Of a DNA stretch of 64,000 nucleotides, positions 22,635-62,120 are shown one piece after another. The first letter of the stretch is position 1. Every line of letters starts with the position of its first letter. This DNA comes from Leptolyngbya sp. PCC 7375 (lineage in GTDB: Bacteria; Cyanobacteriota; Cyanobacteriia; Phormidesmidales; Phormidesmidaceae). The DNA is taken from contig NZ_JH993793.1 of the NCBI RefSeq assembly GCF_000316115.1, forward strand, positions 333,517 to 397,516. The letters are read 5' to 3'. Below the pieces are notes generated by a model, which worked only from the letters and a program-made list of their open reading frames with translations, had not been told where the DNA came from and made no database searches. A program made the position numbers and the translations under genes.

Positions 22635-22660
22635 CTGTACCTCGCAGATCAATAAAACGG

Positions 22661-22815
22661 TAGGTTGACCATCGGCGGGCATTCTGACTGGGAGGTATAA
22701 AACTTCCTTCACAGCTGCGGGACAGTGGCAGATTTTCACTGCGCTTTCCCCTTTTCCTCTAGCGGCTGTTCCCCACTAGAACCGATGCTAAGCAGATTAA
22801 ATCTACCACCTTCAC
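22661..22815 (-). ncRNA. Cobalamin riboswitch upstream of hupE-cobW
   Basis: The minus strand carries the conserved core in order: GGGGAAAGCGCAGTGAAAAT, then CTGCCACTGTCCCGCAGCTG, TGTGAAGGAAG, and the B12 box CCAGTCAGAATGCCCGCC. This matches the AdoCbl riboswitch layout. It ends about 27 nt before the hupE start, so it could hide the GAGGT site. Binding of adenosylcobalamin would turn off cobalt uptake. Edges are approximate. Confidence 0.92.
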
Positions 22816-43000: not shown

Positions 43001-43357
43001 GAGGGTAAACCCCTGCTGTCGATCCTGCTGCAGCCAGGTCTCTAGATCCTGTTGTTGCTTTTCAGACGACTTGTCTCGCCAATCCAGCTGAGTAAACGGC
43101 AGTGTCACCTCTCGTCGAACAATCTGGATTGGCTTTTCCAAGCCTTCCCACACAAAGGCCGTGCGCAGAATGGAATGCTGCTTAAGGGTTTGTTCCCAGG
43201 CCTGAACAAAGGTGTCGATGGCCAGATCACCCTGGAGGGTAAAGCCAAACTGGGTGCAGTACATGCCCGCATTGGGGGCCATCAAACTGTGGAATAAAAT
43301 GCCCTGCTGGGTGGGCGTCAGTTCGTAGAGATCTTCGAGATTATCTATCTTTTGCAT
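40055..43357 (-). CDS. NRPS module C-A(Thr)-PCP
   Basis: 1100 residues. C domain (about 10-450) with intact HHLLLDGWS near 146. A domain (about 480-985) with YTSGSTGQPKG. Reading the ten-residue pocket by hand against GrsA gives D-F-W-N-I-G-M-V-H, the threonine code. PCP has GGDSLGLMQL near 1026, followed by a basic Gln/Arg-rich tail. It should condense Thr onto the Asp unit from the upstream protein; its ATG is 3 nt after that gene's stop. The pocket was aligned by eye. Confidence 0.92.
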   Translation of the reverse strand: MQKIDNLEDLYELTPTQQGILFHSLMAPNAGMYCTQFGFTLQGDLAIDTFVQAWEQTLKQHSILRTAFVWEGLEKPIQIVRREVTLPFTQLDWRDKSSEKQQQDLETWLQQDRQQGFTLSQAPLMRLTLIRWADTTYHCIWSKHHLLLDGWSTSLVLKAVLTRYEALRQNQAQHQAPTLTPAPPYRDYVAWLQQQDLAQAESFWRSHLQGFIAPTPLGLPRTLKRSAGSPDIANATHLISPELTQTLKTFARQHQLTLNTLVQGAWGLLLSRYSGETDVVFGVTSAGRPPDLPGAEAMVGLFINTLPARISVDIDQPLVPWLQSIQGQQASLRQYEYSPLTQVQRWSEVPPGNALFDSIVVFENYPVDPELQAVSQEATPNHQAKISDIYTTERTHYPLTIVALTDPTAAPGGLELQGLYDPQQFDADSIERLLGQLACMLKAIPDHGTAALGELPWMTAAERLQLLNWGQAQGSFPKQPGLVERFITHVEQRPDAVALLDGDRSLTYRDLDRRSTQLAHYLSQQGVTAETRVALCLPRSLDLIVAALGILKAGGAYVPLDPSYPTERLRWVLANAEPTVVVTLATETERLGLTPEASVCLDRDAEVINQQSSQLTLPTPQPGQLAYVIYTSGSTGQPKGVMVRHGEVVRLFTATQQWFQFSHEDVWPLFHSFAFDFAVWETWGALLHGGQLVIVPYEISRSPQAFYQYLQETGVTVLNQTSTAFRQLMAIDEAVQAPLALKWVIFGGEALDLPSLRPWFERHGDRTPQLVNMYGITETTVHVTYRPLRQEDTLASTSMIGGPIPDLALYVLDPHRQLVPVGVPGELYVAGAGVSLGYLNRPELTAERFLENPFDPHLGKMYRTGDQVRWRSDGDLDYLGRLDNQVKLRGFRIELGEIEAALNQHPAMREATVMLRHDPPAQPRLVAYTVYHDQPLSDDELRQWLKSKLPDYMVPAATVTLPAFPLTPNGKLDRRQLPAPSSERPSLHVAYAGPQSEQEQTIVRIWQELLQLDTVGIHDSFFDLGGDSLGLMQLHHRLQTELKTSFELMDLFRYPTVHDFAEFLSTQTPAEPTPAAAPQRQQGKSRLQQQRQRRQTSTSR

Positions 43358-43360
43358 GGT

Positions 43361-46300: not shown

Positions 46301-47980
46301 TCGTTCGGTGGGCAGATGGGGGTCCAGGGGCAAATATGCGCCTCCAGCTTTGAGAATACCCAGGATGGCAACAACCCAGTCGAGACACCGGGGGAGGGCT
46401 ACCGCCACCACACTCTCCGACGTTACCCCCTGCTGCCGCAGCATTTTGGCCAACTGATTGGCCCGACTATTAAGCTGGCCATAGGTTAACCAATCTGCTT
46501 CAAACCGAACAGCCGGATGGTTAGGCGTTTGCGCTGCCTGGGCCTCAAACCACTGATGCAGACTGGTATAGCCGCAGGGCTGGCTGGTGGCTTGATTAAA
46601 GTCCACCAGTAAGGCTTGTTGCTCCGGTGCACTGAGTAACGGCAGCTGCGAAATTGTCATCGCCGGTGCGGCTATTGCTGCTGTCATCAGGGTTTGCCAG
46701 TGGTGCTGAATCTGTTGAATAGCCCGTAACTCTAGACGGCTAGCGTCGTAGAGCCAGTCTAGGGTAAGGGTGTTGGCTGCGAACCGACACACTAGCTTTA
46801 ACATGGAGGGTTCTAGCAGAGCGTTGGCTGCCATAACCTTCATAGGAGAGAGATTTCCTGGAGAGAAATCTTCTAGAGAGAAATCCTCTGGGAACGCTGA
46901 CTGCACACCAAAGCTAATGGGAAACCAGCCAGCGTCATCCTGCACGTTTTCCCAGGCAAAACAATCCTGCCAGGGCTTAATTTCTTCTAGTTTCTGATGA
47001 ACTTGAGCGACAAGCGTGGCAAAACTTTGGTTGGGTTGCAGGTCTACCTGTAGTGGCAGATCGCGGGTCAGTGGTCCACAGGCCGTTTGCAGCTCTTCAT
47101 AATGCTGACGGGCATCACAACTATAGCCCAAGGTTAATGTCGATTGTTCAGTGAGTCGCGCGATTAAAATCTGCCAGAGTGTCAGACACACCTCATCTAC
47201 TGTGATTCCCTGCTGAGCTGCCCAGCGATACAGGGTTTGGGTTTGCTCCACCGGCAACACGACAGAATGGACCTGGAGGTGAATGGTATCAGACGCGGTA
47301 GAGTCCGCTGACCGCTCCAAAGGTAGTCGCTGTATTACCTGTTCCAAGTTGCTTGAGCGTCGCCAGTAGCTACGCCCGGCGGCGGTATCCTCTCCTGCCA
47401 ACAGATCTGTCTGCCACTCGGCCAGATCAGCGTATTGCAGTGGGGTCTCCTGATTGATTTGCGGGGTTTCTCCAGGGGGGGCTCCATAGAACTGCTGAAA
47501 TTCGTTGGCCAACAGTGACAGGGTGGCACCATCGGCACACAGCGCTGGCAAACTAAATAGCAACTCATCGTAATCCCCTCGCTGCATCCAGTGCACTTGA
47601 AACAGGGGGCCTTTCACCCAGTTAAACGACTGCGCCAACAGGGTTTGCACCTGGGCTTCTACGGCCTCAGTCGACAGGGTTGCATGATTATGCTGCGTCA
47701 GTACTGACTGACTCGACAGGGTTTCTGCAATCACCTGTAGTGGCATCGTCATCCCCGGCAGGGTGGGAAATGTCGTACGCAGAATTTCATGCCGATCAAT
47801 CAGCTGTTGCAGGGCGGCAGAAAGTTTTGCGGCAGCATAGGGCTGGAGAGATCGCAACCGTAGCGAAGCGCGAAAAGACTGTTCAGGATAGCGTTGCTGT
47901 AGTTGCCACAGACGTTGCTGCTGGGGAGAAAGGCGATAACCTACGATGTCTGAAATGGGTGGGGGCTGGATGGTCTGCAT
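43361..47980 (-). CDS. NRPS module C*-A(Asp)-PCP-E with degenerate condensation domain
   Basis: 1539 residues. The N-terminal C-like domain has lost both catalytic His: the usual HHxxxDG is PALCADG (near 148). A domain (about 480-970) with YTSGSTGQPKG; the pocket reads D-L-T-K-V-G-H-V-G, an aspartate code. PCP with GGDSILSIQ near 1002. E domain with HHLVIDGVSWRVL near 1189 and NYLGQFD, so the Asp should become D. A 15-bp minisatellite lies in the E domain. With the neighbouring hydroxylase, D-beta-hydroxy-Asp is the likely building block. The degenerate domain may be a hydroxylase-docking ('interface') domain rather than a condensation catalyst. Confidence 0.92.
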   Translation of the reverse strand: MQTIQPPPISDIVGYRLSPQQQRLWQLQQRYPEQSFRASLRLRSLQPYAAAKLSAALQQLIDRHEILRTTFPTLPGMTMPLQVIAETLSSQSVLTQHNHATLSTEAVEAQVQTLLAQSFNWVKGPLFQVHWMQRGDYDELLFSLPALCADGATLSLLANEFQQFYGAPPGETPQINQETPLQYADLAEWQTDLLAGEDTAAGRSYWRRSSNLEQVIQRLPLERSADSTASDTIHLQVHSVVLPVEQTQTLYRWAAQQGITVDEVCLTLWQILIARLTEQSTLTLGYSCDARQHYEELQTACGPLTRDLPLQVDLQPNQSFATLVAQVHQKLEEIKPWQDCFAWENVQDDAGWFPISFGVQSAFPEDFSLEDFSPGNLSPMKVMAANALLEPSMLKLVCRFAANTLTLDWLYDASRLELRAIQQIQHHWQTLMTAAIAAPAMTISQLPLLSAPEQQALLVDFNQATSQPCGYTSLHQWFEAQAAQTPNHPAVRFEADWLTYGQLNSRANQLAKMLRQQGVTSESVVAVALPRCLDWVVAILGILKAGGAYLPLDPHLPTERFQTICQGAAVVQVLTRSEWCDRIPETVPTHCLDTPWDKTDTENLLHQTDPAHLAYVIYTSGSTGQPKGVAVEHRHILNYVQGILPQLGLEANAHYGLLSSVAADLGNTVLFAALCTGGCLHLIDDDRALQPSALADYCRQYPLDCLKIVPSHLGALLRDESAAVWLPHHCLVLGGEAAPGSLVADIRRHRPQLKLLNHYGPTETTVGVLTYTVPEHFEPATTLPLGQPLPNIQVYVLDPHHQPVPVGIPGEIYVGGAAVSRGYLNRPDLTTERFITNPFAPGRLYRTGDRARHLPSGHLEFLGRIDDQIKLRGFRIELGEIAAVLQQHPAVQQAIVLLRKETETPQLVAYAIAPTTSAEDLRTYLATKLPDYMVPAAVVPLRSFPLTANGKIDRQALPAPNRGSAVEQTAPSSDAEKQLVAIWQDLLRVETIGIHDNFFELGGDSILSIQVIARANQAGLQLTPRQLFDHQTIAALAAVAGTATAAKAEQGPIGGVAPLTPIQHRFFEQAITNRNHWNQALLLEAREPLDPVFLEQSINHLMQHHDGLRLRFQRHDHRWQAMHGDYRPLSLQHIDEQSCADAELEARIMAHAENVQTSLDITDGPLMGAALIDLGPARSARLLVVVHHLVIDGVSWRVLLEDLQTVYRQLQQGDAIALPPKTTAFQQWGEHLTTYSQSAALQQPWRNNQDWNPATGALPLDFSDGNNAAGNNTAGNNTAGNNIAGKNTVASATTLALSLNVAETQALLREVPKAYQSQINDVLLTALLQGMAPWTERSALMIELENHGRDDFDGQLDLSRTVGWFTAIFPVQLTLPADPHPGAALMAIKEQLRRPGRPLDYGVWRYLSTEDTNHREPDLIFNYLGQFDSSLPETSLFGLASESQGRSRDPNTQRRHLLEINGQVLAGQLQLAWTYSDQCHRQETIAQVAEQTMAALRTLIAHCTSSEAGGYTPSDFPQANLSQTALNQVLAQLQTGEEG
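44120..44188 (-). repeat. 15-bp minisatellite in the E domain
   Basis: About 4.6 copies of ATTGTTGCCAGCTGT (plus-strand phase 44120-44134, 44135-44149, 44150-44164, 44165-44179, partial to 44188), encoding repeated AGNNT. It stays in frame and lies in a surface loop between the HHxxxDG motif and the later E motifs. Confidence 0.92.
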
Positions 47981-48058
47981 AGGATCTATACTGATGGTTA
48001 GAACGGGTGATTAAAACTGATGGTTAGAGAACAATATGAGTAAACAAACAGGGAACAA

Positions 48059-49102
48059 TTATTCAGTCACCCCCACTAAGTTTTGGTGAGGTTGGGCCAT
48101 GCCCACCAAAACCTTGCGAGGACCGCTATAGGGGGTGCGTCCGTGGGCTGCCAACATGTTGTCGAGCAGCAGCACATCCCCTTGTTGCCAGGGAAACATC
48201 ACCGTATGGGCCTGGTAGGCCGCGCGAATAATGGCTAAATCGGCCTCATCCAGCGCCGAGCCATTGCCGTAGTACGCATTACGTGGCAAATCGGCTTCGG
48301 CGATATCTGCCAGCAAACCCTCACGTACCGCTGGCTCCAGGTTAGAAATATGAAATAAATGGGCCTGGTTAAACCAAACCCAGTCCCCAGTGTGGGGATG
48401 ACGGGCCACCGCCTGACAGATCTGCTGGGTGCGGAGACGATCGCCGTTGCCCCAAGTCCAGGTCATGCCGTTGGCCTGGCAAAACGCTTCCACCGCCGCC
48501 GGGTCATCCGTTTGAAATACGGTCTGCCAGGGCAAATCGAGGGAGCCACCATAGTTGCGCACATAGAGGATTTGTTGTTGTTGCCAGCGCGATCGCAAAT
48601 CTGTTGGCAATGCCTGATAGACCTGACGGCTGTCGGCAATGGGCGTCATCCCTCCCGAGACAGCAGGCTGGACACAGAGAAAGGCAATTTTGAGGGGCCA
48701 TTGACGGCTATAGGCCATTTCGTTGTGCAACGGAATAGTCTGGCTAGCTGGATATTCTGTTGAGGTGTACACCTTGCCACTCACCTGAGTACGTGGCGTA
48801 GAGCGGTAGGCGTAGTCCAACAGGTTGTCACTGAGCACGTTCAAAAACTGTTCTAACCCTGGGGTGTCTGCGCTGTCAAAACCACGAAATAACAGTCCAC
48901 CATGGTGATGGAGTTTAGTCTCAATCCAATCTCGCTGGGTCTCAGCCCAGACGGCCAAGTTGAGGGCACCGTGGGTGGGTTGCACCACCAGCGGTAGCCG
49001 CCGGTCGGCAGCCCAGGTCTGAGCTGTAATTAAAGATTCCGAAGAAACCTGAACCGAGCGGCGACGAATGCCATTCAACCGCTGACGAGAAGAAAAAGTC
49101 AT
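48059..49102 (-). CDS. TauD/SyrP-like Fe(II)/2-oxoglutarate beta-hydroxylase
   Basis: About 347 residues. It shows the metal motif in IPLHNEMAYSR (near 127) and the distal His in LAAHGRTPYSG (near 321) with a following Arg for 2-oxoglutarate. LLFRGF and NQAHLFHIS also match SyrP-type TauD proteins, which hydroxylate Asp on a carrier domain. It lies between the Asp NRPS and the free C domain, so beta-hydroxylation of Asp is the natural reading. I start at ATG 49102, 4 nt after the upstream gene; the frame is open further but overlaps that gene. Confidence 0.88.
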   Translation of the reverse strand: MTFSSRQRLNGIRRRSVQVSSESLITAQTWAADRRLPLVVQPTHGALNLAVWAETQRDWIETKLHHHGGLLFRGFDSADTPGLEQFLNVLSDNLLDYAYRSTPRTQVSGKVYTSTEYPASQTIPLHNEMAYSRQWPLKIAFLCVQPAVSGGMTPIADSRQVYQALPTDLRSRWQQQQILYVRNYGGSLDLPWQTVFQTDDPAAVEAFCQANGMTWTWGNGDRLRTQQICQAVARHPHTGDWVWFNQAHLFHISNLEPAVREGLLADIAEADLPRNAYYGNGSALDEADLAIIRAAYQAHTVMFPWQQGDVLLLDNMLAAHGRTPYSGPRKVLVGMAQPHQNLVGVTE

Positions 49103-49106
49103 AGGG

Positions 49107-50612
49107 CTAGGAGGTAAAGGATTGACGGCGAGTGCCTCTAAGCTTTTGCCGCTGGGTCGATAACAGCGCTCGTTTTTGCTCCAGCATTTGTTGCTGCTGT
49201 CGCTGTTGTAACTGTTGGACCAGGTTTGCAATTGACTGGTCGGGGTCGCGGGCAATGTCGGCCAGGAGATCTTCATAGCCACGGGCTAGCCGAGCCACTG
49301 TAGCTGATTCAAAGAGATCGGTGCTGTACTCCAAAGCCCCCTGTAATCCCTGGGGACTTTTCCACAGACCTAGTTTCAGGTCGTGTTTAGCGGTGCCCAG
49401 GTCAATCTCAATCGGTTCTAGGGTCAGCCCCGGAAACGACACCGTGGTGACTGGATCGTCCTGGAGATAAAACCAAACCTGATACAGCGGTGTTTGGCTG
49501 AGGTCCCGTTCGGGCTGGAGTTCATCCACCAGTTTTTCAAAGGGTAAATCCTGATGGGCGTAGGCATTGACCGCCTGGTCGCGCACCCGCTGTAGCCATT
49601 GGCGAAAGGTTAAATCTCCCTCAATGTCGGCACACAGCACCAGCGTATTGGTAAAAAAGCCAATCAGGTTAGCCACTTCCGGACGATCTCGGTTAGCAAT
49701 GGGGGTGCCCACTCGAATTGTGGCCTGCTGGGCATAGTCATATAGCAATACCTGAAAGGTGGCCAGGGTGGTCATAAACAGGGTGGCCTTTGTCTGTTGG
49801 CTCAGCGCCTGTAGCTGATCTGTGAGCTTTGGCGATATGCCTAGGGAATGTCGGTGGCCGCAGTGGCTGCGCACGGCAGGGCGGGGAAAGTCGGTGGGCA
49901 GGCTGGGTACCCCAGGCGGAGAGAGTTGAGCCCGCCAGTAGTTAAACTGTTTTTCTAAAATGTCTCCCTGCAAGAACTGTCGCTGCCAGACGGCAAAATC
50001 AGCATATTGAATGGGCATGGGGGAGAGCTGAGCCTGGTGTCCCCGTTGATGGGCATCGTACAGAATGGCTAACTCCCGAACTAACACTTCCATGGACCAG
50101 CCATCAGAAATAATGTGGTGCAGGGTGAGTAGTAGTACGTGGGTCTCGGTCTCTAATTGGATCAGATGAGAGCGCACCAAGCCATCTTGCTCTAAATCAA
50201 AGGGCTGTTGCACCAGCTCAAGCGCCTGGGATTGAATAGCCGCCGTTTGGTCCGCTGATGGTAAATCTTGCCAGTCTAACTGGGTCAACGAGACAGCCCC
50301 CGTGGGCTGCACCCGCTGATAGGGTTGACCATCCACCAGCACAAAACGCGTCCTTAGGGATTCATGACGCTGCACCAGGTCCTGCCAGGCGTACTTTAAC
50401 GCGGCTACATCCAGATCGCCCCGCAACCGCACCGCCGCCATCATTGTGTAGGCCGGATTACCCGGTTGCAGCTGGTCCAGAAACCACAGACGCTGCTGGG
50501 CAAAAGACAGCGGGAACATATTGGGATGCTGGAGGTGAGATCGCAGCAGGGCGGCTAACTGCGATCGCTTATCGGATAGCTGGGCAATGGCTGGCCGAAG
50601 TGTGGAAGTCAT
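49107..50612 (-). CDS. Free-standing NRPS condensation domain protein
   Basis: 501 residues containing one complete C domain and nothing else. Motifs: LSFAQQRLWFLDQL, intact HHIISDGWSMEVLV near 157, IGTPIANRDRPEV-type core, FFTNTLVL, and HQDLPFEKLVDEL. It is the first gene of the synthetase operon. It could supply the condensation missing from the degenerate Asp module or join a starter acyl group; the tail is a Gln/Arg-rich helix. AAAGGTT precedes the ATG. Confidence 0.88.
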   Translation of the reverse strand: MTSTLRPAIAQLSDKRSQLAALLRSHLQHPNMFPLSFAQQRLWFLDQLQPGNPAYTMMAAVRLRGDLDVAALKYAWQDLVQRHESLRTRFVLVDGQPYQRVQPTGAVSLTQLDWQDLPSADQTAAIQSQALELVQQPFDLEQDGLVRSHLIQLETETHVLLLTLHHIISDGWSMEVLVRELAILYDAHQRGHQAQLSPMPIQYADFAVWQRQFLQGDILEKQFNYWRAQLSPPGVPSLPTDFPRPAVRSHCGHRHSLGISPKLTDQLQALSQQTKATLFMTTLATFQVLLYDYAQQATIRVGTPIANRDRPEVANLIGFFTNTLVLCADIEGDLTFRQWLQRVRDQAVNAYAHQDLPFEKLVDELQPERDLSQTPLYQVWFYLQDDPVTTVSFPGLTLEPIEIDLGTAKHDLKLGLWKSPQGLQGALEYSTDLFESATVARLARGYEDLLADIARDPDQSIANLVQQLQQRQQQQMLEQKRALLSTQRQKLRGTRRQSFTS

Positions 50613-50917
50613 AACCTTTAAAAAGAATAATTCTCGATAACTTTGAGGCTAAAAATCCATAAATTCAGATGCGCGAGCAGAACTAACAAGCTCAATAACC
50701 CTCTAACCTGATTTCACTAAAAACTTTCAATGCTTTTTATAGAAAGAACTTTGTCGAATAGACACAGACGGATTTAAGATCTGAAACGTGGCAACATCAG
50801 GACATGCGACCTTCATCAACTCAAGTATTTCCACCAAACAAATGGAAAACCATGCAATAGCAGGCTAGTCTTAAACAAGAATCTTTGTCAATAGAATTAT
50901 CTTACACGCCATTTGCC
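50613..50917. promoter_or_regulatory. Divergent promoter region with a possible Fur box
   Basis: 305-bp control region between the synthetase operon (minus) and the exporter gene (plus). AAAGAATAATTCTCG at 50622-50636 is a dyad that matches the 7-1-7 Fur pattern TGATAATnATTATCA at 9 of 14 positions by eye. It lies just before the C-domain gene start. No second box or clear -10/-35 set was found with confidence. Confidence 0.4.
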
Positions 50918-52546
50918 ATGAATCTTCTTTCCCTGCTGTTGCGCACATCCCCTATGGCAATGGTCATAGCTATCGTGGCTGGGGGGCTCAGTGGTGGTGG
51001 CAGTGCCCGTCTAGTGGCCCTGGTCAACGAAGTTATAGCGGGTCGACAAGCAACAACGGCATCCTTTTTTTGGGGCTTTTTGGGGCTACTGGCCGTTGTT
51101 TTGGTAGCCGGCTATCTATCACAGCTACTCTTGATTCGCCTGGGTCAGGGGGCTCTGCTGCACCTGCGGCTGATGCTAGCCCGCCAGCTGCTAGACTGCC
51201 CGTTACGTCATCTGGAAGATCTAGGCAGCCATCGTCTATTTGCCTCGCTCACAGCAGATGTTGAAACCATTGCTTCGGCATTCACAGTGGTGCCTTTTCT
51301 TTGTATCGACTTAGCCATCGTGGGCGGTTCTCTGCTGTATTTGGGCTGGCTATCGGTGCCGTTGCTGTTAATTATGGTCGCATTTTTGCTCTTAGCAACC
51401 GTCACCTATCAGCTGATTGCCCGCCGCGCTCGACGCTTTTTGGTCACGGCCCGTAACGAACAAGACCGATTATTCAAACACCTGCGCGGCCTGATTCACG
51501 GCATGAAAGAACTCAAACTGCACCAGCAGCGACGACAGGTTTTTCTAACCGATGAATTGCAACAGACAGCCACCACCTATCGCCGTTTTACCGTCTGGGG
51601 CATGGGCATCTTTGCCGGAGCCGCTAGCTGGGGTCAGCTAATTTTCTTTGCCGTTATTAGCGTCTTTTTGTTTGTTATCCCCCAGTTCAGCGCCCTGGAT
51701 ATGACGCTGTTCTCTAGCTACGTGTTGACCGTTATTTATCTCAACGGTCCCCTCGAAAATTTAATGCGACGCCTGCCAATTCTTAGCCGAGCCAGTGTGG
51801 CCCTAGACAAAGTAGAGTCCTTTGGGTTTATGCTTAACCAGTTTCCAGAACTGCCTAGTATAGAGTCCCTATCCCCATCGTGGCAGCATCTGGAACTTAA
51901 AAACGTAGTCCATCACTATGACCGGGGAGCCGATACGACTCCCTTCACCGTAGGCCCCATAAACCTGGTATTCAAACGACCAGAAGTGGTGTTTCTCATT
52001 GGTGGCAATGGCAGTGGTAAATCCACACTGGCAAAGCTGATTACCGGTCTATATCCTCCGAGTTCAGGCCAGATTATCCTGGATGGCAACCGGATTACTG
52101 ATGACAATCGAGAAGCCTACCGACAACAGTTTTCCGCAATTTTCGCTGATTTTTATCTGTTTGACCGCCTCCTGGCCCTGGACAACCCTCAACAGATTGA
52201 ACAAGCCAACGCCTATTTGCAGGCCTTGCAGCTCGCTCACAAAGTTCATATCCAGGATGGCAAGCTGTCCGACATCGATCTCTCCCAGGGGCAACGCAAA
52301 CGCCTGGCACTCCTGACCACCTATCTAGAAGATCGGCCCGTGTACCTGTTTGATGAATGGGCCGCCGATCAGGACCCCCATTTTAAGACCGTGTTCTATA
52401 CCCAAATTTTACCTGAGCTCAAGCGCCAACAGAAGCTAGTCTTGGCCATTACCCACGATGACAAATATTTTCATCTAGCTGATCGTATACTCAAGTTAGA
52501 GAGCGGTCAATTAGCCGATAGTTCAATGGCAAAAGTCCTTTTATAA
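50918..52546 (+). CDS. PvdE/SyrD-family cyclic-peptide ABC exporter
   Basis: 542 residues, half-transporter with six membrane helices in the first 300 residues and a C-terminal ATPase. Walker A LIGGNGSGKSTLAKLI near 364, signature DLSQGQRKRLAL near 454, Walker B VYLFDEWAADQDP. This is the family that moves pyoverdine precursors or lipopeptides across the inner membrane. ATG 50918 is preferred to an upstream TTG at 50885. It should export the product of the synthetase operon to the periplasm. Confidence 0.93.
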   Translation: MNLLSLLLRTSPMAMVIAIVAGGLSGGGSARLVALVNEVIAGRQATTASFFWGFLGLLAVVLVAGYLSQLLLIRLGQGALLHLRLMLARQLLDCPLRHLEDLGSHRLFASLTADVETIASAFTVVPFLCIDLAIVGGSLLYLGWLSVPLLLIMVAFLLLATVTYQLIARRARRFLVTARNEQDRLFKHLRGLIHGMKELKLHQQRRQVFLTDELQQTATTYRRFTVWGMGIFAGAASWGQLIFFAVISVFLFVIPQFSALDMTLFSSYVLTVIYLNGPLENLMRRLPILSRASVALDKVESFGFMLNQFPELPSIESLSPSWQHLELKNVVHHYDRGADTTPFTVGPINLVFKRPEVVFLIGGNGSGKSTLAKLITGLYPPSSGQIILDGNRITDDNREAYRQQFSAIFADFYLFDRLLALDNPQQIEQANAYLQALQLAHKVHIQDGKLSDIDLSQGQRKRLALLTTYLEDRPVYLFDEWAADQDPHFKTVFYTQILPELKRQQKLVLAITHDDKYFHLADRILKLESGQLADSSMAKVLL

Positions 52547-52576
52547 AAGGGTTATGGTAAATTTATTCAGAAACAG

Positions 52577-52628
52577 AAGATAGTTTAATTATTGCAATGC
52601 TTTCTCATTTAAACTATCTTGATTTTTT
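52577..52628 (+). terminator. Rho-independent terminator after the exporter gene
   Basis: AAGATAGTTTAA (52577-52588) pairs perfectly with TTAAACTATCTT (52609-52620) over a 20-nt loop, then GATTTTTT. It separates the exporter from the FecB-like gene, which probably has its own promoter or is reached by read-through. Confidence 0.75.
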
Positions 52629-52665
52629 ATGGGTTTAGACCAATTTAGGAGCTAAAGCAAAACCA

Positions 52666-53712
52666 ATGTTGGAGGAGATGCGCTATATCAAAAGGCTGCT
52701 ACCAGCCATGATCGCGTTGGTGCTAGTTGTTGCCTGTGGTGGGTCATCCCCCACAACTCAGCTGGTCATCCCAGAGCAGGGACGCGCTGTCGAAACCGCC
52801 TTAGGTGAAGTGATTGTTCCCCAATCACCCCAGCGGGTGGTAGTGCTGTCTCAGAATGCCCTCGATAACAGCCTGGCCTTGGGGATTAAGCCCATTGCCT
52901 CTACCTATTCAGGGTTTCCCCAGCGCTCTAACTACGGCAATTTTGCCAGCTATTTGGCAGATGAAAGCGACGGCATTGTCAATATCGGCCATTCGTCTCA
53001 ACCCAATTTTGAAGCTATTCTGGAGCTAAAACCAGACCTGATTTTGAGTAATGTAGAGGACCACCGTACTTTCTATAATACGCTCTCCCAAATTGCCCCA
53101 ACGGTCCTGGTTGAGACCCGCGCCGATGCCATCACCACCTATGCTACGGCCTTGGGTAAACCAGAACAGGGGCAAGCACTGATTCAAGATTTTCAGGCTC
53201 GGGTTCAAGACTTTCGGCAACAGATGGGTGATCGTCTGGAAACCACTGAAGTTTCGGTGCTACGATTTCGCCCCGATCAGGTGCGCTTATATATGCGGAA
53301 TTCATTTTGTGGCTATATTTTAGAGCAGGTGGGGCTGCCTCGCCCACCGTCTCAGGCCAAAGCAAAATTTTACGAAACGGTTAGCCTCGAAGCCATTCCC
53401 GCTATGGATGGGGATGTTATTTTTTACTTTCAAGACAATCCTCAAAACTCCATGGCTCAAAAGGTCACTCGTCATCCCCTCTGGCAACAGCTTGGGGCAG
53501 TACAACAGGAGAAAGTATATCCAGTATCCTTTGATACTTGGTTTTTGGGAAATGGGATTTTGGCAGCTAACGCGTTGCTAGATGATTTGTTCAAATACTT
53601 AGTTGATAACCCAGTGTGGGGTATGACAACGATCCTGGACAGGACTGCCACATCTCCTGAAACCATTAACACCCAAGGCTCTGGAATCGCCATCAGGGTG
53701 ACCACTAATTGA
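52666..53712 (+). CDS. Siderophore-binding lipoprotein (FecB/FepB type), 3' end altered by insertion
   Basis: Periplasmic iron-siderophore binding protein. The lipobox is LVVACGG after a short signal (KRLLPAMIALVLVVA). Class III binding-protein patterns follow: RVVVLSQNALDNSLALGIKP, FEAILELKPDLILS, LAQIAPTVLVET-like segment. The present frame gives 348 residues, but the last 31 (from Trp at 53617) come from a mobile element. Joining the DNA across the element restores PV followed by TGA, a native length of 317 residues. The lost stop only adds a tail, so function may survive. Confidence 0.9.
   Translation: MLEEMRYIKRLLPAMIALVLVVACGGSSPTTQLVIPEQGRAVETALGEVIVPQSPQRVVVLSQNALDNSLALGIKPIASTYSGFPQRSNYGNFASYLADESDGIVNIGHSSQPNFEAILELKPDLILSNVEDHRTFYNTLSQIAPTVLVETRADAITTYATALGKPEQGQALIQDFQARVQDFRQQMGDRLETTEVSVLRFRPDQVRLYMRNSFCGYILEQVGLPRPPSQAKAKFYETVSLEAIPAMDGDVIFYFQDNPQNSMAQKVTRHPLWQQLGAVQQEKVYPVSFDTWFLGNGILAANALLDDLFKYLVDNPVWGMTTILDRTATSPETINTQGSGIAIRVTTN
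53618..53667 (+). repeat. Left 50-bp terminal inverted repeat
   Basis: Begins GGGGTATGACAACG and ends CTGAAACCATT; identical, inverted, to 61918-61967. It adds residues to the FecB-like protein because it is read in frame. Confidence 0.95.
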
Positions 53713-53936
53713 GCTATCACCGCATAATCCATCGTAAAGTGGCGGAAGAATCGTTGTTGACGCTTGTACTGGGACTCAGGCTTCGCTCGACTGGGAAATG
53801 CCAACGATAGCTCACTCAGGTTCACGGTCCTTGCCCGAAACAAGGCGATGATAAATGCTGCGATAAAGAGAACACGGGCTCCATGCCAACCCAAGTGAGG
53901 CTGCAACAGGGACCGTAACGCGCTAAGCTCTGACAT
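53668..53936 (-). pseudogene. IS4-type transposase, N-terminal fragment
   Basis: From ATG 53936 the frame reads a transposase N-terminus (LGWHGARVLFIAAFIIALFR, LSLAFPSRAKPESQYKRQQR, FFRHFTMDY, IPEPWVL) and then runs into the left 50-bp repeat, where homology stops. The catalytic core is gone. The cut lies exactly at the inner edge of the terminal repeat. The frame continues on into the repeat but only by chance. Confidence 0.8.
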
Positions 53937-54043
53937 AAGGGGTTTCTTGGAGTTGTGGTTAACTCATCAAACCCCTTTCCTGGTTATGGTTCAAGCTTTT
54001 GTCCTGTACTGAGTAACAAGCCACACAATCTATAATTAATCTC

Positions 54044-55082
54044 GGCTCAATAGCTGTTTTGGGGAGGTTGATAAACTCAATCTAAGCAGGGTAGTGTCAG
54101 GGAATCCTGTCCACGGTCATCTCGCCTATTATGCTAACGCTATCCAAGTTAATCGATGAGGATAAATGCTACGAGACAGTACGCACGATGCGTTGGCCCG
54201 AGGGCGTTTGCTGTATTGAGTGTGGGTCGAAAAACATTACCAAACGAGGGAAGCATGCAACCTATGCGGCTCGCCAACGGTATGTCTGTAGCGACTGTGG
54301 TCGCCACTTTGATGATTTGACCGAAACTCTCTTTGCGGGTCGTCATCAATCGTTACAAACCTGGATAGTGTGCTTGTATCTGATGGGGCTCAATGTCTCC
54401 AATCAACAAATTGCCGACGAGTTGAGTCTGCACAAAGATGACGTGCATCAGATGACGAGTGAATTACGCAAAGCGATAGCCGATAAGCGCCCAGAAGTGC
54501 AGTTATCGGGGACAGTGGAGTTTGATGAAGTCTATGTGACCGCAGGGCACAAAGGGCAACCCGAGGCGGTTAAAAAAAAGGGCGCAAGGGACGCAGACGT
54601 AAACTCAAAGGGCTTCGGGGGCGCGGTACGCTCGAAACGGAAAAACCGCCGATCTTCGGGATGATTCAACGGGGAGGGGAGGTGGTGATTAAAATGCTGG
54701 CAAATGTTCAACAACAAACCATTAAGCCGATTATTCAGTCGATGGTTAAGCCTGGAACCCTCATCTACACTGACGAGTATGATATCTATGCTCGCTTGGA
54801 GACCTGGGGATATTCTCATCAGAGTGTTTGCCACAGTGCCGGAGAATATGCCCGAGATGACGATGGAGATGGCTTCTGTGAAGTCCATGTCAATACGATG
54901 GAAGGTTTCTGGTCATTATTACGTTCATGGTTGAGACCTCATCGAGGGATCTCACAAGAAAAATTGCCAATCTATTTGGGATTCTTTGAATTTGTGCATA
55001 ATGCTAGAAAAAGAGGGAAAGCCTTGCTGGGTAGTCTATTAGGCACGTTGCTTGGCTAACTCCCTGAATCCCCTATTGAGCC
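54044..55082 (+). mobile_element. Complete IS1595-family insertion sequence
   Basis: 1039 bp. Ends share GGCTCAATAG (left 54044-54053; right, inverted, 55073-55082). The 8-bp direct repeat TTAATCTC flanks it at 54036-54043 and 55083-55090, the duplication length known for IS1595. It carries one transposase gene split by a -1 shift. Confidence 0.92.
54131..55059 (+). CDS. IS1595/ISXO2-like transposase with -1 frameshift
   Basis: A zinc ribbon (CIECGSKN ... CSDCGRHF) is followed by a DDE core: Asp in GTVEFDEVYVTAG, Asp in LIYTDEYDIYA, and HVNTMEGFWSLLRSWLR. The two halves are in different frames: frame one runs 54131-54664, frame two from the A8 run to 55059. The shift site is A_AAA_AAG (54574-54580), a canonical slippery heptamer, giving a 309-residue protein. 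With intact ends and TSD, programmed shifting is more likely than decay. Confidence 0.85.
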
Positions 55083-55353
55083 TTAATCTCTATGCTGAGA
55101 TAACCCTTATAAACCATGTATTTTTGCAACAGGGCGATATCAAATAGGTTGCAAGAGCGATAATTTAAGCATGAACTTACGTAGAAAATTTAAGGTTATT
55201 AACTTGGCTATTTCAGGCTATTAACTTGGCTATAATTGATCTTACATTTTTTAGTCAGAAAGCTTTGTAGATCGTAGGTTGTTATAGATACCTTATGCTG
55301 TCAAGTTAATAGAACTTTGTAACATTTGTAACAATCGTATGAGGTAACTCCAC
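55083..55353 (+). promoter_or_regulatory. Promoter region of the giant pentapeptide gene
   Basis: AT-rich 271 bp. Two 15-bp direct repeats TATTAACTTGGCTAT lie at 55197-55211 and 55219-55233, 22 bp apart (two helix turns). TATAAT at 55231-55236 overlaps the second and is a good -10. The repeats cover the -35 zone, so they may bind an activator. A TGAGGT lies about 12 nt before ATG 55354. Confidence 0.6.
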
Positions 55354-58300
55354 ATGGCAGCCTCTATTTGTACTATCTTCGATGAGCAGCAATCTTTCAT
55401 TGGAATTTGGGCCATTGACCCGAACTTCGCACCATCTATCGGAAGTTTGGCAGAATTATTGTGGCTGGCTGAACCAACTCTTGAAGCATTTACAACAAAT
55501 CCATACCGACGAGTTCCAAATAAGCATGTCGAAGTTGGTAACGGAGTGCATTTCGAAGATGGAGCTTTCTTCATGCTCGAGGACTACGCAGCGCCCAACG
55601 AGGCACTTAGTAATCCAAATTCTGATATAGCCTATGCTTTAATCAATTATCAAGGAGTTGAATGCCTTGTCCAGTGTACTCGATCAGATAAAAGGATTTC
55701 AACTCCCCCACCTACTGCTCAACGCGTTCAAACCTCCACAAAGACTGTTGATATGTGGTTTAAAGATGGTTTTATTCGCGGACTTCCTTATTCACTGAAA
55801 GACTTCAACTATCTTACTGAAATACCCCGTAACTCCTTAGAAGATTGGGTTCAAAAAGTCTCTACTAAGCCACGTCAACCACGATTTACACTTGTGCGTA
55901 TTGAAGATATCAGCAAGGTCACCCATAAGCTGGCCGATGAGCTTAAAGCAAATCATCAGGTTGATACATCTGAGGTTACCTCATTGTTTGATAAGTACCT
56001 TACTGCAGTTTGTCCACAGTGTTTCGGAGGGCTTACAGGCGATGGTGTACAGATGGCAGCGATGGCATTTTCTAATAAAAGAATGTTATTCCTTGGTGGA
56101 GACCAGCGGTTTCAGCGTGTTTTGAATGGGCAATGCACCTCTTGTGAATCAGAGGAGTATTACATCGCTTGGTGGGGTGATAAGAACTTTCAGCAACAGG
56201 CTTACTCCAAGCAGAAATCTGATAAAGAGCTTATCGAAGGATATGCTGTATATAATCCTAAGTACCTGTTGAATGAGCTGCTACAGGAATCAAAAACGTG
56301 GAATCCTGAAGGAGATGAAAATCCAGAAACTTTAGAGAAATCTGATAAAGAGCTTATCGAAGGACATGATGTATTTGAGTCTGAACACTTGAACCAGTTG
56401 ATGCAGGGTTCAGAAATCTGGAACAAATGGAGAGATGAAAATCCAGGAATTTGCCCTGATTTAAGTGGAGCTGATCTGCGCAGTGCTGACTTAACCGAAG
56501 CTGACTTAAGTAGAGCTAATTTAAGCGAAGCGAACCTATGCAGGGCGAAACTGTGTGCGGCAAACCTAGAGGGATCGAACCTAAGTAGGGCAAATCTAAG
56601 TGGGGCTGACATGCACCTGGCAAACCTAAACAGAACTGATCTAAGAGGAGCAGTACTCTGTGAGGCAAAACTTACGAGAGTCACCTTGGAGGAAGCTAAT
56701 CTGAGTGGGGCTAACCTCAGCGACGCTGCCGTCTTTGAAGCTAACCTGAGTAGGGCTAACCTGAGTGGGGCAAAGCTATATAAAACTTACTTAGTTGAGT
56801 CTAATCTAATAGGAGCGAATCTAAGCGAAACTGATCTGTTGAATGGGGCTAGTCTAAGTGAGTCAAAACTCACGAGAGATGACCTAACCAAGATGAACCT
56901 TAGGGAAACTAACCTTCATGGAATTAACCTCAGTGGAGCTGACTTGAGTAAAATGGACTTCACTGGGGTTAATCTTAGGGGAGCGAACTTACGTAAGACC
57001 AACCTCTGTGAAGCTAACCTAAACAGTGCTGAGCTGAACCAGGCTAACCTCAGTGAGGCTAACCTCAGAAAGGCTAATCTTTCTAAGGCTAAGCTACTGG
57101 GAACCAACCTCCAAGGCGCTGACCTGAGAGGAGTTACCCTTACAGAGATTAATCTTAGCGAGGTTAACCTGCATGGAGCCATCATTAGCGAGGCTGCTCT
57201 AAATAAGATCAACCTCGCTAAGACGAATTTATGTGGTATTAATCTTAGTGACGCTGACTTAAGTAAGATGAATCTCAGTGAGGCTAACCTCAGTGAGGCT
57301 AACCTCAGCAAAGCCAATCTTCGTGAAACAAACCTGCATAAAACTAACCTTAGCAAAGCCAATCTCAGTAAAACTGACTTTAGTGGTGCAAACCTTAGTG
57401 GTGCAAACCTTAGCGGGACAAACTTACGCAAAGCTGATCTAAGCAAGCTCAATCTAAAAGAGATTAATCTAACTGGGGCTAATCTCAACGGCGCTAACCT
57501 TAGTGAAGCTGACCTAAGTAGAACTAACCTCAGCAAAGCTAATCTAGGCAAGGCTAATCTAGGCGCAGCGAACCTAGAGGGCGCAAACCTAACTGGCTCA
57601 AACTTAAACAAAACTGACCTACATCAAGCAAATCTGAATGGAACTGATCTCACCGGAGCAAACCTGAATGAGGCAAATCTTGATGAGGTAAATCTTCACC
57701 AAGCTAAACTTACTAAGGCGAAACTCATTAAAGTAGACCTACGCAAGACTAAACTCAATAAGACCGACTTATGCGAGATTGATCTACGCGAATCCAACCT
57801 CAGCAAAATTAACCTTAGCAAGACTAACCTTAGTAGAACTCAACTAGCAGGAACAAACCTCAGCTTTGCTGATCTACGCGAATCCAACCTCAGCAAAGCT
57901 GACTTATACGGAGCAGACCTCAGCCAGGCTATGCTATGCGGAGCGAACTTGAAAGGAGCAGACCTTAGCGAGGCTAAGCTAAATGGCAGTGATCTAAACA
58001 AAACTATCTTCATAGAAGCAAAAGGTCTGTCTACTAGCCAGATAGCAGCCCTTAAAGAGAGAGGAGGTATTTTTTCTTCTTCTAGCGATACTCAAATAAT
58101 TGATCGTAAACCTAGACCAGGGAAACCTGTCAAGTCACAATTAGATATGAAGCCCAAGTACCTTATTACTGCAGCAGTAATCCTGTGTCTTGGAACAACA
58201 ATTTATCTTGGACCCAAAATACTGTCTTACGCATCTGACGAAAGAGCCTGGGGAGAAGCCATCAGTATAAACACAATACAACATTATAATTCTTATAAGC

Positions 58301-58902
58301 TAAACTTTCCTAAAGGTAGACACCTGGAGGATGCTGATAAAAATAGCTTTTCAGTAGCAAGTCAGGAAAACAATATAAAACTCTTCAATCAGTATCTTAG
58401 GAATTTTCCAAATGGAAATTATGTAAACGAGGCAAATAAATCGATAGTTGAAATAGCAAGCAAACCGTTTTTAATCACAGAAGGATTTCCCTATAAAAGA
58501 GAAGTGATCCTCGATATTCCAATAACAGTAGAAATCACAGGTACAACTAATAATACACTTACAGCAAATTCAAATGTTATCGTACCAGTTGAGGGACTAA
58601 CATTACCTTCTGGTTCAGATATACCTCCTGAACTTGCTGAACTCGCTGGGCAAAAAATTACATATGGAATACAAGGAGGTCCATTTCAGATAACTGCAAC
58701 TAATAGTGGACGAAAAACATCGAACGATTTTGATGCTGTAGGAGTCAAGCTTGTGTTCTTAACCGAAAAAGCTACCTTACATGCTTCCAGATATGTCCTC
58801 AATCAAATAACAAAAAATGCGACTATTGAATTTAAAGAAAACGGTGTTCAATTAACTGGCTTTGAAGTAATAGATTTGCAAGGAGGAGTTCTTGGGAACT
58901 GA
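55354..58902 (+). CDS. Giant membrane-anchored pentapeptide-repeat protein (1182 aa)
   Basis: Three parts. Residues 1-367: a soluble domain I do not recognise, with two CxxC pairs (CPQCFGG, CTSCESEE) that may bind zinc, ending in a tandem duplication (SDKELIEGYAVYNPKYLLNE then SDKELIEGHDVFESEHLNQL). Residues 368-889: about 104 unbroken A(N/D)LxxA-type pentapeptides, enough for about 26 turns of a right-handed quadrilateral beta-helix. The array ends with the usual ALKERGG cap; a membrane helix (YLITAAVILCLGTTIYLG) and a C-terminal region follow with two NFPKG/NFPNG helical repeats and a beta-rich end. Main cargo of the 8.35-kb element. Codon use is AT-rich compared with the siderophore genes. 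Function unknown. Confidence 0.88.
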   Translation: MAASICTIFDEQQSFIGIWAIDPNFAPSIGSLAELLWLAEPTLEAFTTNPYRRVPNKHVEVGNGVHFEDGAFFMLEDYAAPNEALSNPNSDIAYALINYQGVECLVQCTRSDKRISTPPPTAQRVQTSTKTVDMWFKDGFIRGLPYSLKDFNYLTEIPRNSLEDWVQKVSTKPRQPRFTLVRIEDISKVTHKLADELKANHQVDTSEVTSLFDKYLTAVCPQCFGGLTGDGVQMAAMAFSNKRMLFLGGDQRFQRVLNGQCTSCESEEYYIAWWGDKNFQQQAYSKQKSDKELIEGYAVYNPKYLLNELLQESKTWNPEGDENPETLEKSDKELIEGHDVFESEHLNQLMQGSEIWNKWRDENPGICPDLSGADLRSADLTEADLSRANLSEANLCRAKLCAANLEGSNLSRANLSGADMHLANLNRTDLRGAVLCEAKLTRVTLEEANLSGANLSDAAVFEANLSRANLSGAKLYKTYLVESNLIGANLSETDLLNGASLSESKLTRDDLTKMNLRETNLHGINLSGADLSKMDFTGVNLRGANLRKTNLCEANLNSAELNQANLSEANLRKANLSKAKLLGTNLQGADLRGVTLTEINLSEVNLHGAIISEAALNKINLAKTNLCGINLSDADLSKMNLSEANLSEANLSKANLRETNLHKTNLSKANLSKTDFSGANLSGANLSGTNLRKADLSKLNLKEINLTGANLNGANLSEADLSRTNLSKANLGKANLGAANLEGANLTGSNLNKTDLHQANLNGTDLTGANLNEANLDEVNLHQAKLTKAKLIKVDLRKTKLNKTDLCEIDLRESNLSKINLSKTNLSRTQLAGTNLSFADLRESNLSKADLYGADLSQAMLCGANLKGADLSEAKLNGSDLNKTIFIEAKGLSTSQIAALKERGGIFSSSSDTQIIDRKPRPGKPVKSQLDMKPKYLITAAVILCLGTTIYLGPKILSYASDERAWGEAISINTIQHYNSYKLNFPKGRHLEDADKNSFSVASQENNIKLFNQYLRNFPNGNYVNEANKSIVEIASKPFLITEGFPYKREVILDIPITVEITGTTNNTLTANSNVIVPVEGLTLPSGSDIPPELAELAGQKITYGIQGGPFQITATNSGRKTSNDFDAVGVKLVFLTEKATLHASRYVLNQITKNATIEFKENGVQLTGFEVIDLQGGVLGN

Positions 58903-59899
58903 GTACTTTGGAAATTAAATTTATTGCCATGTTATAGGTGGGTTCGATAGGCTGAATTCACGTCTCTGCCCCCTATCAATACGCCAATGAACAAGCGGCA
59001 TCTTGAGTTAACTCCCACTGACCGCAGCGACCTAGCAACCCTTTTGAGCAAAGGTCAACTGGGCGCACGACAATTCAAACGAGCAACCGGTCTGCTGGAG
59101 TTGGACCGTGGCAAGACAATTCAAGCCGTTTGCTCAACCTTGGGAGTGAACCGAGTCACGGTCAGAAAGTGGCGTGACCGCTATCAACAGGAGGGACTGG
59201 CCATGCTGACGGATAAACCTCGTCCTGGTCGTCCCATTGAAATTGATGGCGGTCAACGCGCTAAAGTCACTGCCCTAGCCTGTAGTGACGCCCCGACCGG
59301 TCATGCGCGCTGGACGTTACGCTTGTTAGCGAACAGAGCCGTTGACTTGAACTACTGTCAGCATCTTTCCCACACTCAAGTGCGTGAGATTCTTAAAAAA
59401 ATGCCTTAAAACCTCATCTCAAAAAGACGTGGTGCATTGGGTCGCTCACCAGTATCTTTATTGCGAACATGGAACATCTGTTGGCGCTGTATGCTCGTCC
59501 CTATGATCCACGCTATCCCGTGGTGTGTTTTGATGAACGCCCGTGCTTTTTAATTGGGGAGGTGATGAGGCCATTGCCCGTCAAAGCTGGGCAGGTTGCA
59601 AAAGAACATTATGCCTATGAAAAAAATGGCTCTTGTTCATTACTTGCGGCCATTGAGCCGCTCACGGGTGAGCGATTGGCTCAGGTCCATACGCGACGCA
59701 CCAAACGAGAATACACTTTGTTTTTTCAAGCTTTAGCTGCGCGCTATCCTCATGCTGCCAAAATCCAGGTTGTGCAGGATAATCTCAACACCCATAATGT
59801 CAGTTCTTTCTATGAATACCTGACGGCTGAGGAGGCCTTTGCCCTAGCCCAACGGTTTGAGTTTCACTACACCCCAAAGTCAGCCAGTTGGCTCAATAT

Positions 59900-61585
59900 C
59901 GGACATTCCGCAGGTTAGTCAGCAAATCAAATAATATTTCTGGCAGGGCGCGCCAAGAAATCTGAGGATATTCAGCCGTTCAGGTGAGAGGTTGGAAACC
60001 TGAGGTTGCTCATTGAGCCAAACCAGGTGAATCGCCTGAAACTTCTGAAAAATCCACCGTAAGGACGGCGTTTGAGTCGGTCGCTTGCGTTGGTCGAGAA
60101 GTGTTTCATTCGCCTGGTCCAAGGCGTATCTCACCTGCCGTTGAGCTAGAGTGTACACCATCAGGGACAATCCCATGATGGTCGCCAACGCTACAATGCG
60201 TTCAGGTGTTTTGAGAAAAACACTGGAGGTAAAAAACAAGGGATCCTTGAGAATACCGAAGCCGTGTTCAGAGACTGATTGTCCTTTGTAATCGGAGAGA
60301 ATTATCTCGTCAGTCAAGGTGTCATCATCGATGACATTGGTCGCCAAAATAAAGCGTCCTGCCTTTCGCTTTGCCTGATGAATAGCCACGTCATCGGCGA
60401 CGATTTGAGCGGTAATTCGATACGTGACTTGGGTGGGTGTCGCCCCTGTTTTCGGGCGTCCTGACTGGGCATAGTGGTGCTGTTCGACCACGTCTAACTG
60501 GCTCAAACAGTGATAGGGCCAGCGGGTCGCTAGGGCCTCGGCCTGGCGGCGAGCATCGGCGGCACAATTAAACTCAATGGTCTGTTGACGACGCAGTTGT
60601 TTTGTTGCCTTGATGAGTTGTTTGGCAACCTGTTTATCCACCTGTTGGCAATCCGTCTCGACCCGTGTCTGATTCTCGACCACGACCCACCCTTGTCGAA
60701 TTCCCCCATAGGTTGTGCACACACGAGCCAATCGATAGCCGTCCCGTTCACTTGCCACAAAGGCCTCTGGATCGATCTCAGTAACCACCGCTTGGGCCGC
60801 CGATAGCGTTAACGGGACACGGGTAATCCAACGCAGTGACCCCAAAATGGCTAAGTTATCGGCACTGTATAAGGCACTGTCAGCGACCAAGATGCCCTCG
60901 ACACTCCAGTGCTCTGCAAACGTCTTTAATCGGTCTGCAAACACCGCTTTGTCGGATTGATTGCCACTGGCGACCTCAAACGCTAAGGGGACTCCCCCAT
61001 CATTCGTACAGATCGTCTCCACTACAAACTGTTTTAAGTCAGGTCGGTGGTCTTTCGAATAGCCATGGGTGATTTCAATGCAACCAGGCTCTTTGTTCGC
61101 GCTTTCATACGCCCCATGCACACTCAGGCTACTACTATCAAGATGATAACGACGGCTATCTAAGCCAAAGGCTTGATAGGCTGCCATCGAGACGACACTG
61201 AACAATTTGCTGGGTCCATACGCCCACACTTTGTCGAGTAATCGACCCAAGTAATCATCATTCAGATGGGAGGGCGCAATCCCCTCGCCAAGCAGATGCT
61301 CCGTTGCTTTGCCCACAAAAAATTCTTCATACAGATACAACGGTGCACTCACAAAGCCTAATCCATTCAGAATCATGGCTTTGATGCCTTGTCCCGGACT
61401 CACCTTTTGCTGCACATGGGTCCCTAGACAATCATTCACCAGCGCTTCGAGTCCGATTTGGTCTACAATCCCTGCAATGATGCCTAAGTGATCAATATCT
61501 TCGACGCGCATCTTCTTTAAGCGGCTCTGCAAAAACGTTACCGCTTAAATTACCTGATTTTCAAACCTAACCTGCGGAATGCGCG
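59900..61585 (-). mobile_element. IS1634-family insertion sequence
   Basis: 1686 bp with imperfect inverted ends (CGGACATTCCGCAGGTTAG and inverse CGCGCATTCCGCAGGTTAG) and a 6-bp direct repeat CAATAT at 59894-59899 and 61586-61591. It interrupts the IS630 transposase gene. It is complete and probably recent. Confidence 0.9.
59919..61532 (-). CDS. IS1634-family transposase
   Basis: 537 residues, complete. N-terminal DUF4277-type region (VEDIDHLGIIAGIVDQIGLE ... ILNGLGFVSAPLYLYEEFF) and the DDE core with YHLDSSSLSVHGAYE and ILVADSALYSADNLAIL; HGFGILKDPLFF near the end holds the acidic third position region. No frameshift or stop inside. Confidence 0.92.
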   Translation of the reverse strand: MQSRLKKMRVEDIDHLGIIAGIVDQIGLEALVNDCLGTHVQQKVSPGQGIKAMILNGLGFVSAPLYLYEEFFVGKATEHLLGEGIAPSHLNDDYLGRLLDKVWAYGPSKLFSVVSMAAYQAFGLDSRRYHLDSSSLSVHGAYESANKEPGCIEITHGYSKDHRPDLKQFVVETICTNDGGVPLAFEVASGNQSDKAVFADRLKTFAEHWSVEGILVADSALYSADNLAILGSLRWITRVPLTLSAAQAVVTEIDPEAFVASERDGYRLARVCTTYGGIRQGWVVVENQTRVETDCQQVDKQVAKQLIKATKQLRRQQTIEFNCAADARRQAEALATRWPYHCLSQLDVVEQHHYAQSGRPKTGATPTQVTYRITAQIVADDVAIHQAKRKAGRFILATNVIDDDTLTDEIILSDYKGQSVSEHGFGILKDPLFFTSSVFLKTPERIVALATIMGLSLMVYTLAQRQVRYALDQANETLLDQRKRPTQTPSLRWIFQKFQAIHLVWLNEQPQVSNLSPERLNILRFLGAPCQKYYLIC

Positions 61586-61917
61586 CAATATGATTGAAAT
61601 CGAGTTTTCTGCACTGGCTAGAGGCTGTTTGCATCAGCGTATCCACACACAAGACCAATTAGAACAAGAGGTGCTCACCTTGGTGCAAGAACGGCATAAC
61701 CAGCGTATCCGCATCCATTGGCAATTTTCAGTTGAGGCTGCACGCGATAACTTTCAGAAGCAGTATGTCAAAATTCGAGAAAATAAGACTCTCTAAAATG
61801 GTAGAAAACTTAATTTCCAGTGTACTGAGTTTGCAATTTTGAGACAATGCTCCTATCTGCAAGTATGTATGGCTGATGAAAATCGGCCATTTTCGCCCTC
61901 TGAAAATATTGCACACC

Positions 61918-61967
61918 AATGGTTTCAGGAGATGTGGCAGTCCTGTCCAGGATCGTTGTCATACCCC
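61918..61967 (-). repeat. Right 50-bp terminal inverted repeat
   Basis: Exact inverse of 53618-53667. Followed by AGTGT, the second copy of the target duplication, then GA, which completes the FecB-like gene's original TGA. Confidence 0.95.
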
Positions 61968-62077
61968 AGTGTGATCTGAAATCTGCTTAGAAATAAACTA
62001 CCCGACGGATTACGGCTATTGCCTAACCCTTGATTCAAATAGGTAGGTAGATGAGTATAAGGTAACCAGTACAGTTA

Positions 62078-62120
62078 CCCATCCACCCATCCACCCATCC
62101 ACCCATCTACCCACCTACCC
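62078..62120. repeat. 8-bp tandem repeat
   Basis: About five copies of CCCATCCA (the last two diverged) between the element's right flank and the TonB receptor gene. Confidence 0.9.

Follow-up and report, generated by a model that had tools for sequence, protein, structure and literature searches.

MIC231 is a derivative of IS231. In this element of Bacillus cereus (cited in PMC6542083) the concept is the same as in the element described here, a passenger gene enclosed by transposon ends with no transposase alongside, but its ends are of the IS4 family and not of the Tn3 family. Tn3 mobile insertion cassettes (MICs) without transposition genes, related to TnXax1, have been described in Xanthomonas, and several of their passengers encode large peptide-repeat-array proteins (PMC6304161, PMC7157771). 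TIMEs and TIME-COMPs have been described in Pseudomonas and Enterobacteriaceae (PMC4133298, PMC13367494). In the literature examined, Tn3 cassettes were mainly carriers of virulence and resistance genes.

The element of Leptolyngbya sp. PCC 7375 was compared with these systems. Like the Xanthomonas cassettes, it carries a passenger between Tn3-type ends and has no transposition genes, and as in several of them the passenger has a large repeat-protein product. It differs from them in its cyanobacterial host, its pentapeptide-repeat cargo and its ends (50 bp vs the long TnXax1-type ends), and in being present as a single copy, heavily interrupted by insertion sequences (ISs), in a genome where a cognate TnpA was not found. 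With TIMEs and TIME-COMPs it shares Tn3-type ends, 5-bp duplications, the lack of a transposase and a presumed need for TnpA in trans; unlike them, it is not miniature, has no miniature pair around a segment and was not seen in multiple copies. Because Tn3 cassettes with large repeat-protein genes are already known from Xanthomonas (PMC7157771, PMC6304161), the first-pass annotation went too far in treating such a large cassette with a giant pentapeptide protein as main cargo as undescribed: the kind is not new, while the host and cargo are. A limited full-text search (weak evidence of absence) returned no paper joining cyanobacteria, the Tn3 family, transposase and pentapeptide repeat. Provided that the element travelled as a unit lacking its own transposase, the range of Tn3 insertion cassettes would widen to include an environmental cyanobacterium and a cargo with a head domain for which no relatives were found.

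Ends and target site of the element

Coordinates are given for a 64-kb window, the whole stretch of DNA that was analysed (G000:C1:333517-397516), in a host genome (G000) whose 5 contigs total 9.42 Mb and whose completeness was rated 100%. The element measured 8350 bp between the outer edges of its inverted repeats (IRs). By repeat comparison and alignment with Tn3 ends, a left Tn3-type terminal IR of 50 bp (GGGGTATGACAACG...) was placed at 53618-53667 (+) and the same 50 bp at 61918-61967 (-). The two arms were 100% complementary over 50 bp, or 51 bp counting the T/A from the duplication, which is far beyond what chance would give. AGTGT was read directly outside both arms, at 53613-53617 (also recovered by empty-site comparison) and at 61968-61972, where the following GAT restores the natural stop of the interrupted gene. 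Coordinates and sequence of these identical inverted ends and flanking AGTGT copies agreed with the first-pass annotation. The direct repeat can also be read as 9 bp (CCCAGTGTG); the 5-bp reading was preferred because only with it do symmetric GGGG/CCCC ends remain. Tn3-family terminal IRs are ~38-50 bp and usually start with GGGG.

The interrupted gene encodes a FecB-like periplasmic binding protein (Pfam Peripla_BP_2; 52666-53712, +; assigned by ORF, domain and relatives). The insertion point lies in its last codons and the TGA stop is split by the element; with the stop removed, the ORF runs 31 codons into the element and now comprises 348 aa vs 317 originally. The predicted 31-residue C-terminal extension is encoded by the transposon end and an adjoining IS4 fragment.

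A close relative, G019 (96.5% identity to this genome over 3 kb), has a FecB-like protein 99% identical to the one here, with the gene 98% identical at the DNA level. The G019 gene ends ...GATACCCCAGTGTGATG, and the corresponding window sequence, once one AGTGT copy is taken out, is ...GATAACCCAGTGTGATCTG. The match of G019 to the collapsed site spans the join, with the stop codon restored, and continues through AGTGTGAT (also CCAGTGTGAT) before the sequences diverge. Homology of the right flank to G019 ceases beyond AGTGTGAT, leaving 8 bases as the only right-side anchor of the empty site. The odds of these 8 bases matching by chance are about 1 in 65,000, and because such a match is unlikely, the site is best read as a simple insertion that duplicated 5 bp. 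The empty-site comparison proposed beforehand thus yielded the single AGTGT and restored stop that support a 5-bp target duplication, but on the right for 8 bases only. With both flanks of this genome joined, the expected uninterrupted site is ...GATAACCCAGTGTGATCTGAAATC....

Past the join synteny breaks, G019 and G015 continuing into another gene and the present genome into a TonB receptor region; this rearrangement beside the right flank is an event separate from the insertion. The insertion was absent from the relatives G019, G015 and G013 and is therefore young, dating from after the divergence from G019.

Several further features were observed around the target site. Gene order at about 42870-53616 of the window, a part with large ORFs, genes for an ABC exporter and the gene for the FecB-like protein, was collinear with that in G013 and G015. 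Of these genes, those for the exporter and the FecB-like protein lie on a 697-kb contig here vs a 7.7-Mb contig in G019, which suggests relocation of the segment between replicons. A short tandem ACCCATCC array is found near the right flank (62077-62113), and arrays of this kind occur dispersed through G000, G015 and G019. A cobalamin riboswitch (Rfam RF00174, 61 bits) was detected at 22657-22801 (-).

Relatives of the ends and searches for a transposase

BLAST of the whole element against the order returned two relatives, both of the right end and both from the same GTDB family as the host. One was a lone end in the MAG of Leptolyngbya sp. SIOISBB (G003; 84% over 116 bp); the other belonged to a 3.55-kb Tn3 transposon (G052:C465, locus L070) with both ends (36/38 bases identical) and a full TnpA. 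This TnpA matched the Pfam Tn3 DDE domain (E = 1e-149) and Tn4430 TnpA (E = 2e-62) and was about 45% identical to TnXax1 TnpA. The BLAST match of the right end to G052 (E = 4e-8) continues past the inner edge of the IR for about 45 bp, on the side of the tnpA 3' end. Right sub-terminal DNA was delimited by BLAST and end alignment at 61825-61917, with all of tnpA absent; 61856-61917 is homologous to the lone G003 end, and the part nearest the IR also to the tnpA 3'-side end of the G052 transposon. The ends aligned to those of G052 with scores of 23-25, vs about -4.8 +/- 3.2 (maximum 10) for shuffles.

The element and the G052 transposon have in common the outer 8 bases of the IR (GGGGTATG), CGAT, the inner IR block (GCCACATCTCCTGAAA) and the tnpA-side sub-terminal block; the G052 transposon differs in that tnpA is present, there is no passenger and the middle of the IR is dissimilar, with a 1-base indel. 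Because the block beside the tnpA stop in G052 and G034 (CAGAGG..AAA..GGCC.ATT) is recognisable inside the right IR, the right end corresponds to the tnpA side of a Tn3 transposon.

A different origin, with ends belonging to some other IS family or with an inverted repeat that arose through recombination, would accord with the IR middle being unlike G052 and with the failure to find an autonomous element with exactly these ends in the searched genomes. It is largely refuted by the GGGG start, the 5-bp duplication and the homology of both end and sub-terminal DNA to a transposon with a Tn3 TnpA, and was considered very improbable. The earlier assignment to the Tn3 family is thus borne out by homology to the ends and sub-terminal DNA of a real Tn3 transposon, and the element, with IRs homologous to such ends and a 5-bp target duplication, is a Tn3-family derivative. 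It is no autonomous member, since a tnpA with the Tn3 DDE transposase is missing.

No trace of TnpA was detected in the element by tblastn with four TnpA queries (best E about 0.8), and no resolvase ORF or domain was found inside it by ORF listing and domain search, in agreement with the first reading of the locus. Resolvase is also missing from some tnpA-only Tn3-family members. A passenger gene between transposon ends without that transposon's transposase, as in a MIC, is what was found.

Lone ends of the same type exist (G003) and TIME-COMPs are documented (PMC4133298, PMC13367494), so a similar composite was weighed, in which two separately inserted solo Tn3 ends or miniature elements would flank and move a chromosomal segment. 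Against this, neither side is a complete two-IR miniature element, whereas a TIME-COMP is bounded by two of them: on the left, only the outer 50 bp are present, with an IS4 fragment attached, and the right consists of one IR plus tnpA-side DNA. A composite was accordingly rated improbable.

Other copies were sought as proposed in the first-pass annotation, with the lone G003 end and the full G052 transposon as the relatives obtained and no other copies of the cassette. A second copy was absent from the host genome (100% complete), and no copy or autonomous element with closely similar ends was found in 64 same-order genomes or about 385 sampled cyanobacteria (DNA and gapped pattern searches). 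Exact and gapped end-pattern scans of genome contigs, viral contigs and sampled cyanobacteria returned this genome, the G003 end and two further matches, in one Planctomycete and one alphaproteobacterium, presumed to be chance. The right end had no match in the plasmid collection.

The host genome holds Tn3 transposases. Intact resident TnpAs on C1 were rejected as the source, as their ends (GGGGTTAAATGAG...) differ. Also set aside was the TnpA of contig C3, whose ends start GGCC and are weakly similar (score 5.5-7.5); it is an intact 1009-aa TnpA in a resident Tn3 transposon (G000:C3 about 155200-160100; L013 7224-12077) with ends of about 120 bp (88%) that seem to open with GGCC and not GGGG. 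The TnpA remnant beside the lone G003 end was discounted as the cognate enzyme, being of another Tn3 subfamily, whose GACCCC ends measure roughly 36-42 bp and terminate short of the end shared with the element; the lone end lies about 230 bp behind this remnant in a relic cluster (G003 L069 8900-9563). On the replicon that carries the cassette, TnpA fragments that share up to 83% identity with the G052 Tn3 transposase were observed (G000:C1 175280-177453). No matching ends were found around them, and they are a possible remnant of a past partner.

Nested insertion sequences and origin of the element

Sequence and domain searches placed an IS4-family element fragment (5' part of the transposase plus IS end) at 53668-54013 (-); it is 346 bp long, and on its broken side it directly adjoins the left IR. 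It is followed by an IS1595-family IS (54044-55082, +) with 23-bp end repeats, a transposase in two overlapping frames and an 8-bp target duplication (TTAATCTC, 54036-54043 and 55083-55090). The cargo gene, identified by ORF and domain searches (55354-58902, +), encodes a 1182-aa pentapeptide-repeat protein. Directly after its stop lies an IS630-family IS (58906-61822, +; TA duplication at 58904-58905 and 61823-61824), in which an IS1634-family IS is nested (59900-61585, -; 6-bp duplication CAATAT at 59894-59899 and 61586-61591). The IS1595 and IS630 transposases (54131-55059 and 58987-59918) were each split near an A-run, which may reflect programmed frameshifting or decay.

The later insertions (IS1595; IS630 with nested IS1634), each with its own target duplication, make up 3966 of the 8350 bp. 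Stripped of them, the unit is 4384 bp long and consists of an IR, the IS4 fragment, a short stretch, the pentapeptide gene, a tnpA-side tail of about 90 bp and an IR, with 96 bp from the cargo stop to the IR. The 8.35-kb length originally reported therefore holds for the interrupted element, but it is largely due to unrelated IS insertions, the unit itself being 4.38 kb. IS nesting can thus inflate such cassettes and also hide them, because annotation pipelines show transposase fragments and a hypothetical gene only.

The ends, duplication and cargo agree with a Tn3-type mobile insertion cassette, and the element is probably one, derived from a Tn3-family transposon and moved with TnpA in trans. 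The progenitor would have been a Tn3-family transposon with tnpA beside its right end. Deletion or gene capture would have eliminated tnpA, so that the right 50-bp end remained together with about 60 bp of DNA from the tnpA side and the pentapeptide gene. A Tn3-type TnpA from another element would then have bound both identical ends, presumably after tnpA had already been lost, and joined them to the target at the last FecB-like codons, with replication duplicating the 5 bp AGTGT in what would be a paste-and-copy mode. The single copy in a complete genome and the lack of a resident TnpA with cognate ends among those readable count against movement as a cassette.

The absence of a second copy also fits decay of an autonomous Tn3 transposon that never moved non-autonomously, having inserted with tnpA and a pentapeptide passenger, lost tnpA by one deletion and gained the ISs in place. 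Such decay was judged possible but unlikely. The right end keeps tnpA-side sub-terminal DNA, one deletion from the cargo stop to the tnpA 3' end would suffice, and three ISs sit inside the element. Against such decay, neither tnpA nor resolvase left a trace in the element, the time since the G019 split must accommodate every loss and every IS gain, and the deletions halted precisely where the left IR begins on its inner side and left both ends whole, a pattern that selection for mobility following the deletion would produce. In view of the recent insertion, judged by G019, and of the two undamaged ends, prior loss of tnpA was taken to be about twice as probable as later loss. Arrival of a cassette as a transposase-less mosaic needs fewer recent events, the insertion being young, than in-place tnpA loss, IS4 truncation and three IS gains. 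The first-pass statement that the element must be moved in trans was nevertheless too strong, as no second copy was found and tnpA may have been lost after insertion.

The pentapeptide-repeat cargo

The pentapeptide gene, with its 1182-aa ORF, was confirmed as the main cargo. About 110 pentapeptides occupy aa ~370-925. For the N-terminal ~300 aa, searches of the order, of 389 genomes in the class and of plasmids, phages and viral contigs gave no relatives, and the N-terminal part had no Pfam match; PADLOC also returned no match. An apparent hydrophobic stretch was read by eye in the C-terminal part. NCBIfam matches on the cargo (HetL-like, Qnr and others) reflect the repeat and are no evidence of function. 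Structure prediction without an alignment gave a pLDDT of 31-33, too low for use. Pentapeptide-repeat proteins form a right-handed beta-helix, and by analogy it might be guessed that this helix binds a protein or DNA enzyme, possibly while anchored in the membrane. Tentatively, the cargo could represent a new class of giant proteins (a relative-less N-terminal domain, ~110 pentapeptides and a hydrophobic C-terminus) on a cyanobacterial Tn3-type cassette, spread in trans by an as yet unrecognized lineage of the Tn3 family and retained because it has its own function. The G+C content of the cargo was 36-45% vs 51% for the window, which suggests a foreign origin.
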